A stretch of DNA of 64,000 bases from Rhodopseudomonas palustris HaA2. Its GTDB lineage: Bacteria; Pseudomonadota; Alphaproteobacteria; Rhizobiales; Xanthobacteraceae. This document shows positions 60,486 to 64,000 of the stretch, piece after piece. The DNA lies in assembly GCF_000013365.1 (NCBI RefSeq), contig NC_007778.1:3410001-3474000 (forward strand). The letters run 5' to 3'. A model generated the notes under the pieces. The model was not told the origin of the DNA, did no database searches, and saw nothing but the letters and a program-made list of their open reading frames with translations. The translations under genes were made by a program, and so were the position numbers. Within the stretch, counting starts at the first letter, position 1, and every line of letters starts with the position of its first letter.

Positions 60486-60575
60486 GGAAGGGTGGCCGAG
60501 CGGTTTAAGGCACCGGTCTTGAAAACCGGCGTGCCCGCAAGGGTACCGTGGGTTCGAATCCCACCCCTTCCGCCA
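60486..60575 (+). tRNA. tRNA-Ser (anticodon UGA), integration site
   Basis: Complete serine tRNA: acceptor GGAAGGG/CCCTTCC, D-arm, anticodon stem CCGGT/ACCGG with loop CTTGAAA (anticodon TGA at 60520-60522), long variable arm (GTGCCCGCAAGGGTAC), T-arm with GTTCGAATC, discriminator G and encoded CCA ending at 60575. It decodes UCA and others of the UCN box. The integrase gene that follows 85 bp downstream shows that its 3' end served as attachment site. Confidence 0.97.
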
Positions 60576-60628
60576 TGTCTAAGCAATTGATTTTACTAAT
60601 GTAAGAAGCATTCTAGCGACTCGATTCT

Positions 60629-60646
60629 GTTACAATTTGATGTAAC
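60629..60646. promoter_or_regulatory. inverted repeat upstream of the integrase gene
   Basis: GTTACA (60629-60634), 6 nt, TGTAAC (60641-60646), 14 bp before the integrase ATG. Its place between the tRNA and the integrase start suits an operator for autorepression or an excisionase/integrase arm site. Confidence 0.5.
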
Positions 60647-60660
60647 GTTTCGAGGCGCTC

Positions 60661-62307
60661 ATGTACCTATGGAAACGCGGCACCGTTTATTGGTTTCGCC
60701 GATCAATCCCGCAGGATCTGAAGGCTCACGTTGGCTCGAATGACGCCGCCGCGAGTCTCCGGACCGGCGACCGTAGGAAGGCCCGGAGACGGGCAATGAG
60801 GCTGGCAGTGACGATGGATGAATGGTCGGAGGCGGTCCGGCAAGCACAATTGAATGATCTGGAACAACCCGACCGCGCCCTTTTGCTGAAAATGTTCGAC
60901 GACGCGATGGGTCTCGTCGAAAGCCAGCAGGCGACCGACAGCACCCGGCAGCAGGCGGACGCAATCCAGGCAGCCATCACCGAGTACAAGGCGACGGCCG
61001 GAACTCGGGAGCGTCTTTCGGGGATCAATCAACGTATCCGTGTAATCGGCGACCGCGTAGCGGCCTTGACCGCCGCACCGGCGAAGGCTCCCTCAAGCGA
61101 GATTGCCGACCTTCGTGCCGACTTGATGAACGAGATGGCGAAGGTCCGGAATGACGTTCAAAACGCGCACAAGAATCAGTGGTCCGCCGACCTCCTGTCG
61201 ACCAAGATCGACGATTACGTTCAGGCCAAGGCCAAAGAGCTTGGCGGCACGAAGCATGTTTCGACAATTGGGCCGCGGATCAGGAATTTTCTGGAAACGA
61301 TCGGCGACAAGCCACTCCGCGACTACACACGCCAGGATTTTGAACGATATCGCGATATCTTGGACCGCACGCCGAAACGAGCTTTCGACCGGTTCAAAAC
61401 CAACAATCTTGCCGATGCCGCCGAAAGGAACGAAAAGCGCGCACGGCCCTTTGAAGTTATCGATGACAAAACCGTCGACGACGACTATCTGACACCCGTC
61501 AAAACGTTCTTCATGCATCTTGTTCGGAATCTCTGGATTCCCGCGACCCCTGCCATCGGCATCGTCTCCTCGCGGACACGCGAAAGCCGCAGGACCGACC
61601 GACCTGACGAAGGTCGGCGAGCTTTCAAGCCCGATCCGATCAATGCCTATTTCCGGTACATCGTCCAGAAACGATCGCGAGCGACAGAAGACTTTTGGCT
61701 GCCGATCCTGGCTCTATATACCGGTGCTCGCCTCAATGAACTCTGCCAGATCGAGCCGCGCCGGATTATTCTACACAATGGCCGCTGGCATATCGATTTG
61801 CTGACGATTTACGATCGAGATGAGATCGAGCGCGCGGTGAAAGGAATGAAAAAAGAGGAAAAGTCTGCTGCGAGATTGAAACTGAAGACCGCATCGGCGC
61901 GCCGACAAATTCCTATTCACGACGACCTGATCAAGATCGGATTTATTGATTTTGTCGATCAGCGGAGAAATCACCCCAAGTACACGCGCCTGTTTCCCAA
62001 CCTGCGGCCGGATCAATACGGATATTTTTCATCCGCCGTCGGGAAACGGCTAAACCGCGACATCAAGAGCGCTGGCGCGAAAACCGACGATACCTCGTTC
62101 TACAGTCTCCGCCACAATTTCGCGGCTGCATTAGAGCGGGCGCTTGTGCCCCATCGCACGAAAGACAGGATCATGGGCCACCTCGTCGTCGGAGCCCAAG
62201 GTCACTACACCGATCCCGAACTTGAGGATGTCGAAACCGCAGTCATCGAGCGCGTCAGCTTTCCGGGTGTCGACATCGCTCCATATCTTTCCCAAAAACG
62301 CTTGTAA
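60661..62307 (+). CDS. tyrosine-type site-specific integrase
   Basis: A 548-residue tyrosine recombinase. It begins MYLWKRGTVYWFRRSIPQDL, a DUF6538-type N-terminal segment found in proteobacterial island integrases, followed by an arm/core-binding region (KIDDYVQAKAKELGG to RDFERYRDIL) and the catalytic domain. Catalytic residues: Arg in LYTGARLNELCQIE, Tyr (in place of the first His) and Arg in FYSLRHNFAAAL, His in IMGHLVVG, and the tyrosine nucleophile in GHYTDPELED. About 1.5 times longer than phage lambda Int owing to the extended N-terminal half. It likely integrates and excises the element at tRNA-Ser(UGA). Confidence 0.94.
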   Translation: MYLWKRGTVYWFRRSIPQDLKAHVGSNDAAASLRTGDRRKARRRAMRLAVTMDEWSEAVRQAQLNDLEQPDRALLLKMFDDAMGLVESQQATDSTRQQADAIQAAITEYKATAGTRERLSGINQRIRVIGDRVAALTAAPAKAPSSEIADLRADLMNEMAKVRNDVQNAHKNQWSADLLSTKIDDYVQAKAKELGGTKHVSTIGPRIRNFLETIGDKPLRDYTRQDFERYRDILDRTPKRAFDRFKTNNLADAAERNEKRARPFEVIDDKTVDDDYLTPVKTFFMHLVRNLWIPATPAIGIVSSRTRESRRTDRPDEGRRAFKPDPINAYFRYIVQKRSRATEDFWLPILALYTGARLNELCQIEPRRIILHNGRWHIDLLTIYDRDEIERAVKGMKKEEKSAARLKLKTASARRQIPIHDDLIKIGFIDFVDQRRNHPKYTRLFPNLRPDQYGYFSSAVGKRLNRDIKSAGAKTDDTSFYSLRHNFAAALERALVPHRTKDRIMGHLVVGAQGHYTDPELEDVETAVIERVSFPGVDIAPYLSQKRL

Positions 62308-62859
62308 GACCGAGCAAACAGAACGCGGTTGACGGTCGCGAGGGCCGCCTACACTCGTCCCTGCGTCGAGCCCAAGGGGCTCGACGGCAGCGCCTTCTTA
62401 GGCGCGCGCTCTTGCGCGGGGCGAGCGGCCCGAACGACTAGTCACCGAGCGACGGGGCCCCATGACTATCCGAGAGTGGCGGTGCGCCGGCACGGCGCAC
62501 GAAGGCCGGGACCCGTGGCCCGGCCGAGAGCCACGAAGAATCGTCATGGGGGGAGCGAGGGAGACCGCGCTCGATCCAGCTTTGCATCGGAGCACCCAAG
62601 AAAGTATTGGCGTTCTTCCGTTCTGAAGATTCCAACTTTTGCATGACGATCGGTCATATGCTGTCGGCTGCCGACCCGTTTACCGCGATCCTCCCGAAAA
62701 TATTCTTTCCCAATGAATCGTTGGGATTTTGCGCGTTGAGCCGACCGGCACGGTCCGAGCGCGTTTGACCTGCGCGTGAGTTGATACCCACCATTGATGA
62801 CAACCCCTGGGTCTTCGCGCTTCGCAGGCGCTCGCCAGGGGTCATCAACGGGTGAGATC
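62308..62859. other. integrase-rep intergenic region
   Basis: 552 bp without a credible gene. A -35-like TTGACG near 62332 with TACACT 15 nt on could start a transcript through the hairpin block at 62361-62525. Further right are TCCCAA-N7-TTGGGA (62708-62726) and a 13-bp inverted repeat with a 3-nt bulge, TGATGAcaaCCCCTGG (62795-62810) against CCAGGGGTCATCA (62835-62847), just upstream of the rep ATG. Such repeats are typical of rolling-circle origins and Rep-gene operators. Confidence 0.5.
62361..62525. other. block of consecutive GC-rich hairpins (structured RNA or replication origin)
   Basis: Five stems follow each other without a coding frame: CGTCGAGCCC-AAG-GGGCTCGACG (62364-62386, extended by CTG/CAG), GCGCC-TTCTTA-GGCGC (62390-62405), GCGC-TCTT-GCGC (62406-62417), GTGCGCC-GGCAC-GGCGCAC (62482-62500), and GGCCGGG-ACCCGTGG-CCCGGCC (62504-62525). 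GGGGC (62418-62422) can pair with GCCCC (62457-62461) as a closing stem over a branched region. It lies between the integrase stop and the rep gene. Confidence 0.65.
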
Positions 62860-64000
62860 ATGGTCACTACAAATCTAGGATATGTCAACAATAGTCGTGG
62901 CGGTGATATCAGCCGCGATGGTTTCGATCGCGACCTCTCGATCGATGCATGCAGTCGCCCGTTTATCACATTGCCCGCCGGAATCGCCGCTGGAATCGAT
63001 CTGCTTTGGGGTGATACCGACACGACCGCCGACAGGCGGTCGCTTGCCAGTAGAGGAGCTACATTCGCGGACAACGAAAACATCAACAATCAATTGGACA
63101 ATGCCAACGAAGGACGAGGCAACGCGAAAATAGAGGAATCCAACGCCGAGGTTTCTGAGACTAAGCACCGGTACGATTTGAAACACGCCGTGGTCCGGAT
63201 GCTCCGCACCGGTCTCAGCGAAGACGAGCGCTCTCACGCAGTCTGCGGCTGCGGTGCTGCCGCTTACGACCGCGATGAAGACGACGGTGCCCGTCTCCAA
63301 ATCCCGGTTCATCGTAACGACGCAGGCCGCGCCTGGGTTTCTGGCGTCTATCGCTGCAAATCGGGCTGGCTATGTCCAACCTGCGCACCGGCCGTCGCCA
63401 GGAAGCGCCAGGAGGCTGTCCGGGAGGTCGTTAAGGCGACGACGGAAGCCGACGGCATGTTTCTGATGGGTCTGGTTACCGTACATCACGTGAAGAAGGA
63501 CAAGCTTGCGGACGTTAAGAAGCTCGTGACGGACTCTTTCGCCGCCGCGCGCCGCCAGAAGAACTGGGCGCGCGCTGCGGAAGAAGCGGGGGTTGCCGGA
63601 GTTCTAGTCGCTCCCGAGGTTACCTACGGTCGCCACGGCTGGCATTTTCACTTGCACTTCGGAGTCTCGTGCATTTCCTGCGATGGCGACGACGAACTGA
63701 CCGACGCAGAGTCGGAAGCCATTGAGGACGCAGCACTCGCCGCTGGACGCATTCTCATCGAGAATTTCCGCGCTCAAGTCGCTAAACGCGGCGGAACGAC
63801 TGTCATCGATGGCCAGGGCATCGAGATCGCCGCTAGCCCGGAGGCAGCAAGCGATTACATCGCAAAGGGGACGTCATGGGAACTGGCTGGCGGCGTCGCA
63901 CATAAGAGCGATGCCAAGGGCCAAACGATTTGGCAAATTGTCGAAGACGCCGACGCAGGCGATACCGACGCTTACGCGCGTTTCCGCGAGTACGCTGAGG
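62860..64000 (+). CDS. HUH rolling-circle replication initiator (Rep), 3' end outside window
   Basis: An open frame of 380 codons without a stop before the window edge. Start ATG 62860 (an upstream in-frame ATG at 62797 would overlap an inverted repeat). The N-terminal 115 residues are a polar, asparagine/aspartate-rich leader. Then a zinc-binding-like set appears: CGCG (Cys129, Cys131) and RCKSGWLCPTCAPAVARKRQ (Cys166, Cys172, Cys175). Next are the three Rep motifs: MFLMGLVTV (motif 1), HGWHFHLHFG with the metal-binding HUH triad (His262, His264, His266), and SDYIAKGTSWE with the candidate nicking tyrosine (Tyr333). This pattern fits pC194/pUB110-type Rep proteins that nick a double-strand origin. 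Confidence 0.85.
   Translation, partial: MVTTNLGYVNNSRGGDISRDGFDRDLSIDACSRPFITLPAGIAAGIDLLWGDTDTTADRRSLASRGATFADNENINNQLDNANEGRGNAKIEESNAEVSETKHRYDLKHAVVRMLRTGLSEDERSHAVCGCGAAAYDRDEDDGARLQIPVHRNDAGRAWVSGVYRCKSGWLCPTCAPAVARKRQEAVREVVKATTEADGMFLMGLVTVHHVKKDKLADVKKLVTDSFAAARRQKNWARAAEEAGVAGVLVAPEVTYGRHGWHFHLHFGVSCISCDGDDELTDAESEAIEDAALAAGRILIENFRAQVAKRGGTTVIDGQGIEIAASPEAASDYIAKGTSWELAGGVAHKSDAKGQTIWQIVEDADAGDTDAYARFREYAE

Follow-up and report, generated by a model that had tools for sequence, protein, structure and literature searches.

What kind of mobile element has inserted at the tRNA-Ser(UGA) gene near the right end of this 64,000-nt stretch of the Rhodopseudomonas palustris HaA2 chromosome (the window), and what is a rolling-circle replication initiator (Rep) doing beside its integrase? 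The original prediction, made from the window alone, took the locus for an excising, self-replicating integrative plasmid or phage-plasmid of an undescribed kind and likened it to the actinomycete integrative and conjugative elements (AICEs). With the sequence to the right read from the complete 5.33 Mb chromosome (C1), the element is best described as an integrative and mobilizable element (IME) that carries a Rep of the pC194/Rep_1 superfamily, not as an AICE. The explanation as a whole, a 17.6 kb IME that excises, copies itself as a rolling circle and is mobilized by a helper, is one that we hold with considerable confidence, its excision, replication and transfer being inferred from sequence. 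Coordinates on L005 become window positions on addition of 58000, and everything from the repeat array behind rep onward lies outside the window (Table 1).

Boundaries and integration site

The predicted pairing of a tRNA-Ser(UGA) gene with an integrase is confirmed by ARAGORN, the list of open reading frames (ORFs) and Pfam. The printed 3' end of the tRNA gene reads TTCCGCCA, so that CCA is encoded, and the integrase ORF begins 85 bp past it; an Rfam scan gives three matches at E ≤ 1, of which the tRNA alone attains its gathering score. The integrase scores above the Pfam cut-off for DUF6538 (E 4.8e-17) as well as for Phage_integrase (E 2.6e-9). The second att copy that the original prediction expected to the right is present as an exact 19-bp repeat of the tRNA 3' end, giving an element of 17,565 bp between the tRNA-Ser gene and this copy. 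No further same-orientation att copy of at least 14 bp occurs within the 80 kb searched, and the longest copy among 300 control 24-mers measures 13 bp, against 19 bp for att. The element has a G+C content of 56.2%; the part of the window that precedes the tRNA reaches 66.3%, and the 20 kb to the right of the element 60.5%.

Judged from the 19-bp repeats, insertion at its 3' end leaves the tRNA-Ser(UGA) gene intact. The right flank is matched in 13 of 15 congeners, with an alignment that begins exactly at the first att base in 12, and the joined flanks align through the tRNA and over the junction at 12 loci in those same 12 genomes; on these alignments, the congeners carry the empty site. One empty-site locus (L029) spans both flanks over 588 bp, and another (L038) extends just 10 bp beyond att. 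Some congeners hold extra att-flank copies, and the site therefore looks like a hotspot.

Within the element, a 15-bp sequence, TCGATTCTGTTACAA, lies 44 bp inside attL, and its inverted copy lies 58 bp inside attR. The longest inverted match in 300 shuffles is 10 bp, and the two repeats may be integrase arm sites.

Around the same site, multiple att-flank copies share one contig of congener G015 (C15, at 117630, 141437 and 180697), which suggests tandem islands at the same tRNA-Ser gene. To the right of attR, a Fic-domain protein gene (L006:527-2347) does not form part of the element; a stretch 75% identical to this region is present in congener G012.

A plasmid-type rolling-circle initiator

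The rep frame continues 545 bp past the window end and encodes 583 aa when counted from the TTG at 62794 (end at L005:6545), although an in-frame ATG at 62860 is the likelier start. All the HUH features that had been read from the window are in place: a Cys cluster (CGCG at 63244, CKSGWLCPTCA at 63355), a motif 1-like GLVTVHH (63469), the HxHxH in GWHFHLH (63637) and the YxxKG in DYIAKG (63853). C153, C188, C194, C197, H286, H288 and Y355 are invariant in a nine-sequence alignment that includes six plasmid proteins; the K358 position varies.

A tblastn search with Rep retrieves 17 plasmid records (best E 6e-24), and 'protein rep' is the annotation in 15. The best plasmid match, annotated as a 'hypothetical protein', is on pRm1132f of S. 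meliloti, with 31-32% identity in an alignment that covers 63% of the query; for this plasmid, rolling-circle replication is cited as demonstrated (Barran 2001, via PMC10194956). Among PHROGs families Rep matches phrog_11698 (E 5.3e-37); relatives are absent from the viral contigs searched and limited to one weak record in phages, and a profile sequence search of the PDB gives 0 matches. The proposed comparison with Rep_1 stood in part: Rep_1 is the sole Pfam match (E 5e-4), at a score below the curated cut-off. In the Rep clade described below, 6 of 11 members match Rep_1 at E ≤ 0.01, the best at 9.8e-9. The original prediction had allowed for a transposase-type HUH protein; the tblastn matches, phrog_11698, the alignment and the tree instead support a plasmid-type rolling-circle initiator of the pC194/Rep_1 superfamily.

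Transfer genes and cargo

The gene order runs from the integrase through a folded 0.55 kb stretch, rep, the array, small unknown ORFs and a candidate origin of transfer (oriT) to an accessory gene and the relaxase. The right part, on the opposite strand, holds hsdM-hsdS-prrC-hsdR, then a small, weakly ribbon-helix-helix-like ORF, then attR. The cargo, which the original prediction had left to be listed, is thus a type I restriction system with PrrC (PADLOC, 1.4e-137), found together with a MobA/VirD2-type relaxase. A small gene lies behind the relaxase, as it also does in the element of genome G350.

The Pfam scan covered 14 element ORFs besides the integrase (some small ORFs were left out) and four right-flank ORFs. 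None of the 14 has an above-cut-off domain of a mating pore or type IV secretion system or of an FtsK-type Tra, and none has one of a phage capsid, terminase or packaging protein. The sole phage-type Pfam match, of the NikA-like ORF to a phage tube, falls below the cut-off (E 0.025). Eight element proteins compared with PHROGs match integrase families and families of unknown function, apart from a head-protease family that the integrase matches weakly (E 0.012). The phage-plasmid proposal consequently falls for want of a recognised phage structural gene among these ORFs, and the likeness to AICEs gives way to a relaxase in place of an FtsK-type Tra. The host genome gives no match to PF03135 (VirB4/TrbE) in a search whose control recovers this family in Caulobacter. 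Because no mating-pore gene was found, the element probably relies on an incoming helper for transfer.

Related Rep-bearing elements

Rep matches occur in 14 of 397 genomes of the order, taken from named relatives to be Hyphomicrobiales, the host included, and the loci of all 13 others were fetched. In seven of these 13, Rep shares an integrated element with a recombinase and a relaxase; the insertion sites are tRNA genes or comM, a gene identified by its ChlI and Mg_chelatase domains. Five consist of a tRNA gene, a related tyrosine integrase, a PF03432 relaxase and Rep. A second att copy of 17-21 bp is found for L065, L066, L067 and L068; in the att controls, the set for L065 also reaches 18 bp, as long as the copy observed, and this control maximum could be the att itself. 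The integrase calls in L067 and L071 stem from DUF6538 (in L071 also Phage_int_M) and similarity to other integrases, with no Phage_integrase match, and the L068 integrase is split over two frames. The YxxK motif is degenerate in the Reps of L066-L068, so not every member need be active.

Other searches return few relatives. None of the 15 congeners has a Rep match. A relatives search matched 5 of 200 genomes including the host, of which L010 and L011 remain after L012 and L013 were dropped on reading their ORFs; a class-wide search found Rep in 4 of 385 genomes, again including the host. A genome scan gave six loci, of which all but L024 and L025 were examined. The closest, in Afipia sp. Root123D2, encodes a 55% identical Rep behind a tRNA-Ser(CGA) gene and an integrase, without a second att copy (L020). 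In Ensifer, too, an element (L022) breaks the Mg_chelatase domain, close to the position at which L062 does so.

In a tree of 25 proteins, from which the L071 Rep, clipped by its contig end, was left out, the Rep of this element pairs with that of Afipia (100/100) inside an 11-member group. The group comprises eight Reps of integrated elements, pRm1132f and two contig Reps; the L070 Rep falls outside it. Recombinase and relaxase types vary within the group, which therefore points to module exchange around one kept Rep family and suggests a modular set of Rep-bearing integrative elements in the order, of which this element is one.

The frequent company of a relaxase bears on what Rep does. Rep might itself be a second relaxase, with a dual Rep/Mob role in place of maintenance, leaving the canonical relaxase redundant or reserved for another helper. 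Passages of two papers indicate that Rep_1 initiators can drive mobilization (PMC5714925, PMC5357655), and a dual role of this kind is reported for Rep_1 proteins of pC194-type plasmids that ICEBs1 mobilizes. That role, however, comes from Firmicutes with ICEBs1-type coupling proteins, whereas here a canonical relaxase is present in the element and seven of the 13 other Rep loci also include a relaxase; related Reps, moreover, are found on small plasmids that persist as such. A second relaxase is accordingly a rather improbable role for Rep, and replication of the excised IME is the role preferred here.

A viral origin fares worse. The element could be a provirus or a phage satellite in which the HUH protein initiates replication of the phage type, a view favored by the phrog_11698 match and by related Reps that adjoin virus-like blocks by eye (L063, L064, L102). 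Those virus-like Reps sit in the other large group of the tree, however, and the 14 ORFs scanned offer a relaxase instead of any above-cut-off virion or packaging domain, which makes this origin extremely unlikely for what we read as an IME.

Three side observations concern the relatives. The blocks beside the Reps of L063, L064 and L102 are similar sets of small genes that resemble a small virus by eye and possibly represent an undescribed provirus group; one L063 ORF has a weak HerA/DUF87 match (E 4.6e-4, under the cut-off). Rep elements in comM with large serine recombinases are represented by L022 and L062 with L079. The tRNA-Met element carries what looks like a defence-type cassette (L065:2738-8932), in which an ORF that resembles a methyltransferase by eye is joined by a 995-aa protein containing HEF_HK and HATPase domains.

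Table 1. Features of the element and of related Rep-bearing loci. Plain numbers are window positions.
Feature	Position	Strand	Basis or content
tRNA-Ser(UGA), integration target, CCA encoded	60486..60575	+	ARAGORN (TGA anticodon); Rfam tRNA
attL, 19-bp ATCCCACCCCTTCCGCCAT	60558..60576	+	exact repeat at C1:3488123-3488141
15-bp TCGATTCTGTTACAA, candidate integrase arm site	60621..60635	+	inverted copy at C1:3488050-3488064
Tyrosine recombinase (DUF6538 + Phage_integrase)	60661..62307	+	ORF list, Pfam
G+C-rich non-coding stretch, possible origin or regulatory region	62308..62787	+	
Hairpin right before likely rep start, candidate double-strand origin or rep control element	62788..62851	+	
rep, rolling-circle HUH initiator, Rep_1/pC194 superfamily	62794..64000, on to C1:3474545	+	
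GANTCCTT repeat array, directly after rep	L005:6602-6695, outside window		
17-nt inverted repeat, candidate oriT by position only	L005:8355-8396		
NikA-like accessory	L005:8493-8891		weak match
MobA/VirD2-type relaxase, PF03432	L005:8888-11014		Pfam E 9.4e-10, above cut-off
Type I restriction + PrrC, hsdM-hsdS-prrC-hsdR	L005:12367-19461	opposite	
attR, exact 19-bp copy of tRNA 3' end	C1:3488123-3488141 (L006:123-141), outside window		
L065	tRNA-Met		integrase, relaxase, Rep
L066, L067, L068	tRNA-Ser		integrase, relaxase, Rep
L071	tRNA-Ser, contig end		integrase, relaxase, Rep
L070	tRNA-Arg, 42-bp repeat		integrase, Mob_Pre, Rep
L062	comM, split		large serine recombinase, MobA_MobL relaxase, Rep

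Non-coding signals and the GANTC array

Two candidate control regions flank rep. Upstream, 62308-62860 folds better than 100 of 100 shuffles (z -5.8), and the hairpin is kept in Afipia with one pair altered on both sides (C-G to G-C). Downstream, direct GANTCCTT pairs within 30 bp are confined, in the host genome, to the array behind rep; the Afipia element has five copies of the repeat. Within the stretches fetched, a AAGGANTC array occurs in 4 of the 11 Rep-clade members (this element, Afipia, G350 and G414) and is absent from the other seven (Alsobacter, Ensifer, pRm1132f, R. terrae and L066-L068). It stands directly behind rep in three of the four and near the right att in G414. GANTC, the CcrM methylation site, is retained throughout the array, and its middle base takes all four letters.

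Of the 397 genomes of the order, five have a triple AAGGANTC array, which in three lies within a Rep element (this one, G350 and G414); the remaining two genomes are 1.4-1.5 Mb in size. A reversed control pattern occurs in 9 of the 397, 0 of them among the 14 that bear Rep. The pattern is thus not commoner than its control overall (5 versus 9 genomes), and only its location is telling. Over-representation of GANTC across the element was likewise ruled out (57 sites against 65.9 expected); only the cluster stands out. For windows picked after the data were seen, random placements reach the GANTC cluster at frequencies of 0.014 for this element, 0.035 for Afipia, and 0.0006 and 0/20,000 for the other two, and reach the four AAGGANTC sites of this element in 0 of 200,000.

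The host encodes GcrA. It also has a single RAMA domain, which lies in a frame of 378 aa that we take to be consistent with CcrM from the domain make-up of that enzyme; among 14 control genomes, RAMA appears only in Caulobacter. After rolling-circle copying or single-strand transfer, the GANTC sites of the array would be hemimethylated or unmethylated. The array could thereby register that the element has just arrived or replicated, and might couple element firing to the cell cycle through GcrA or a methylation-reading Rep. At the Agrobacterium repABC origin, GANTC sites are described as mattering for replicon maintenance (PMC11514494), and by analogy methylation control through the array is plausible here. 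The wider proposal, that this Rep family marks modular alphaproteobacterial integrative elements whose replication is gated by host cell-cycle methylation, is tentative and on present evidence doubtful. The array nonetheless provides a concrete hypothesis for how replication of the element might be timed to the cell cycle.

Proposed life cycle

In the proposed cycle, the integrase would excise the element as a circle and Rep would nick a double-strand origin, for which the hairpin before rep and the AAGGANTC array behind it are candidates. Rolling-circle copying would guard the circle against dilution loss before transfer or re-integration. The relaxase would then nick an oriT, with an incoming conjugative element providing the mating pore, while the restriction-PrrC cassette might shield host and element from phage or competitors.

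Several observations weigh against this account. No excisionase is recognised in the element. The Rep_1 match scores 19.4-20.1 bits, under the curated cut-off of 33.2. The AlphaFold model of Rep is poor (pLDDT 59.9, pTM 0.58), and Foldseek gives it no match at E 1e-3 and no HUH-titled protein among the 50 matches listed; the strand and helix order in the confident part of this low-confidence model fits an HUH domain by eye only, and the structural result, lacking a significant match, was set aside as evidence. PF03432-type relaxases are expected to carry Tyr in motif I, and the relaxase of this element has His there by eye. The same His (xLxxHL, also by eye) recurs in six of seven aligned PF03432 relaxases (this element, L065-L068 and L071); MOBV relaxases use a His nucleophile, and by analogy a MOBV-like one is conceivable for these. 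Among the 13 other Rep loci, six do not demonstrably share the architecture, namely L063 and L064 (virus-like by eye), L069 and L072 (short contigs), L073 (no follow-up Rep hit) and L074, and three further loci of the class have no integrase or relaxase query hit within the 20 kb fetched.

The missing excisionase also bears on whether the element still moves. It might be an immobile remnant, a small rolling-circle plasmid once captured by an integrase island and kept for its restriction-PrrC cargo. A host genome without a PF03135 match would fit such a history, as would decay in relatives (the split integrase of L068 and the lack of a second att copy in Afipia L020). However, the integrase, Rep and relaxase frames are uninterrupted, the att copies are identical over 19 bp, and the lack of a Rep match in the 15 congeners suggests recent arrival. 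A remnant is therefore unlikely, though it carries more weight than the other alternatives, and a mobilizable IME remains our preferred reading.

Comparison with known systems

The order hsdM-hsdS-prrC-hsdR is that of E. coli; hsd-prrC loci share it with the element, where it is IME cargo. IMEs such as SGI1 and the streptococcal IMEs have an integrase, att repeats and a relaxase without a mating pore, as does this element. The 'undescribed kind' of the original prediction was therefore too strong, since the IME is a known kind; what survives of the claim is the Rep type, which was not found described for IMEs of this lineage. Some IMEs do carry replication initiators, and passages of one review name Rep_3, RepA/RepC, phage-type and Rep_Trans initiators (PMC5704250); Rep_1, the type found here, is absent from those that the passages name. 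Paracoccus islands are described with Rep_3 (PMC6209633), and passages of a streptococcal survey name Rep_1 for plasmids only (PMC5357655). Literature searches, confined to open-licence papers, turned up no Rep_1-type IME in Alphaproteobacteria, which is not proof of absence.

AICEs of actinomycetes such as pSAM2 resemble the element in tRNA integration and a rolling-circle Rep, but were searched for in one study by an FtsK/SpoIIIE-type Tra (PMC3218068), a domain not found among the ORFs scanned here, where a relaxase is present instead. Closer to home, pPDL2 of Sphingobium fuliginis is integrative and mobilizable like the element, has an integrase, and finds its attB in a seryl-tRNA gene, again at the 3' end (PMC3516476); its RepA, which works with iterons and a dnaA box in the manner of theta-replicating plasmids, contrasts with the Rep_1-type rolling-circle protein here. 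The plasmid pRm1132f is typed MOBV and thus has a relaxase, as the element does, but is a free 7.2 kb plasmid with no integrase named among the eight genes listed in an incomplete gene table; in Ensifer, a close relative of its Rep belongs to an element that carries a serine recombinase and is inserted in comM.

The fate of excised IMEs before transfer or re-integration appears under the heading 'an unexplored world' in a 2017 review (PMC5704250). With one Rep family kept while integrases (tyrosine or serine) and relaxases (PF03432, MobA_MobL, Mob_Pre) are swapped around it, the question of how IMEs survive in that interval becomes testable. These Rep-bearing elements blur the boundary between small plasmid and island in Alphaproteobacteria.

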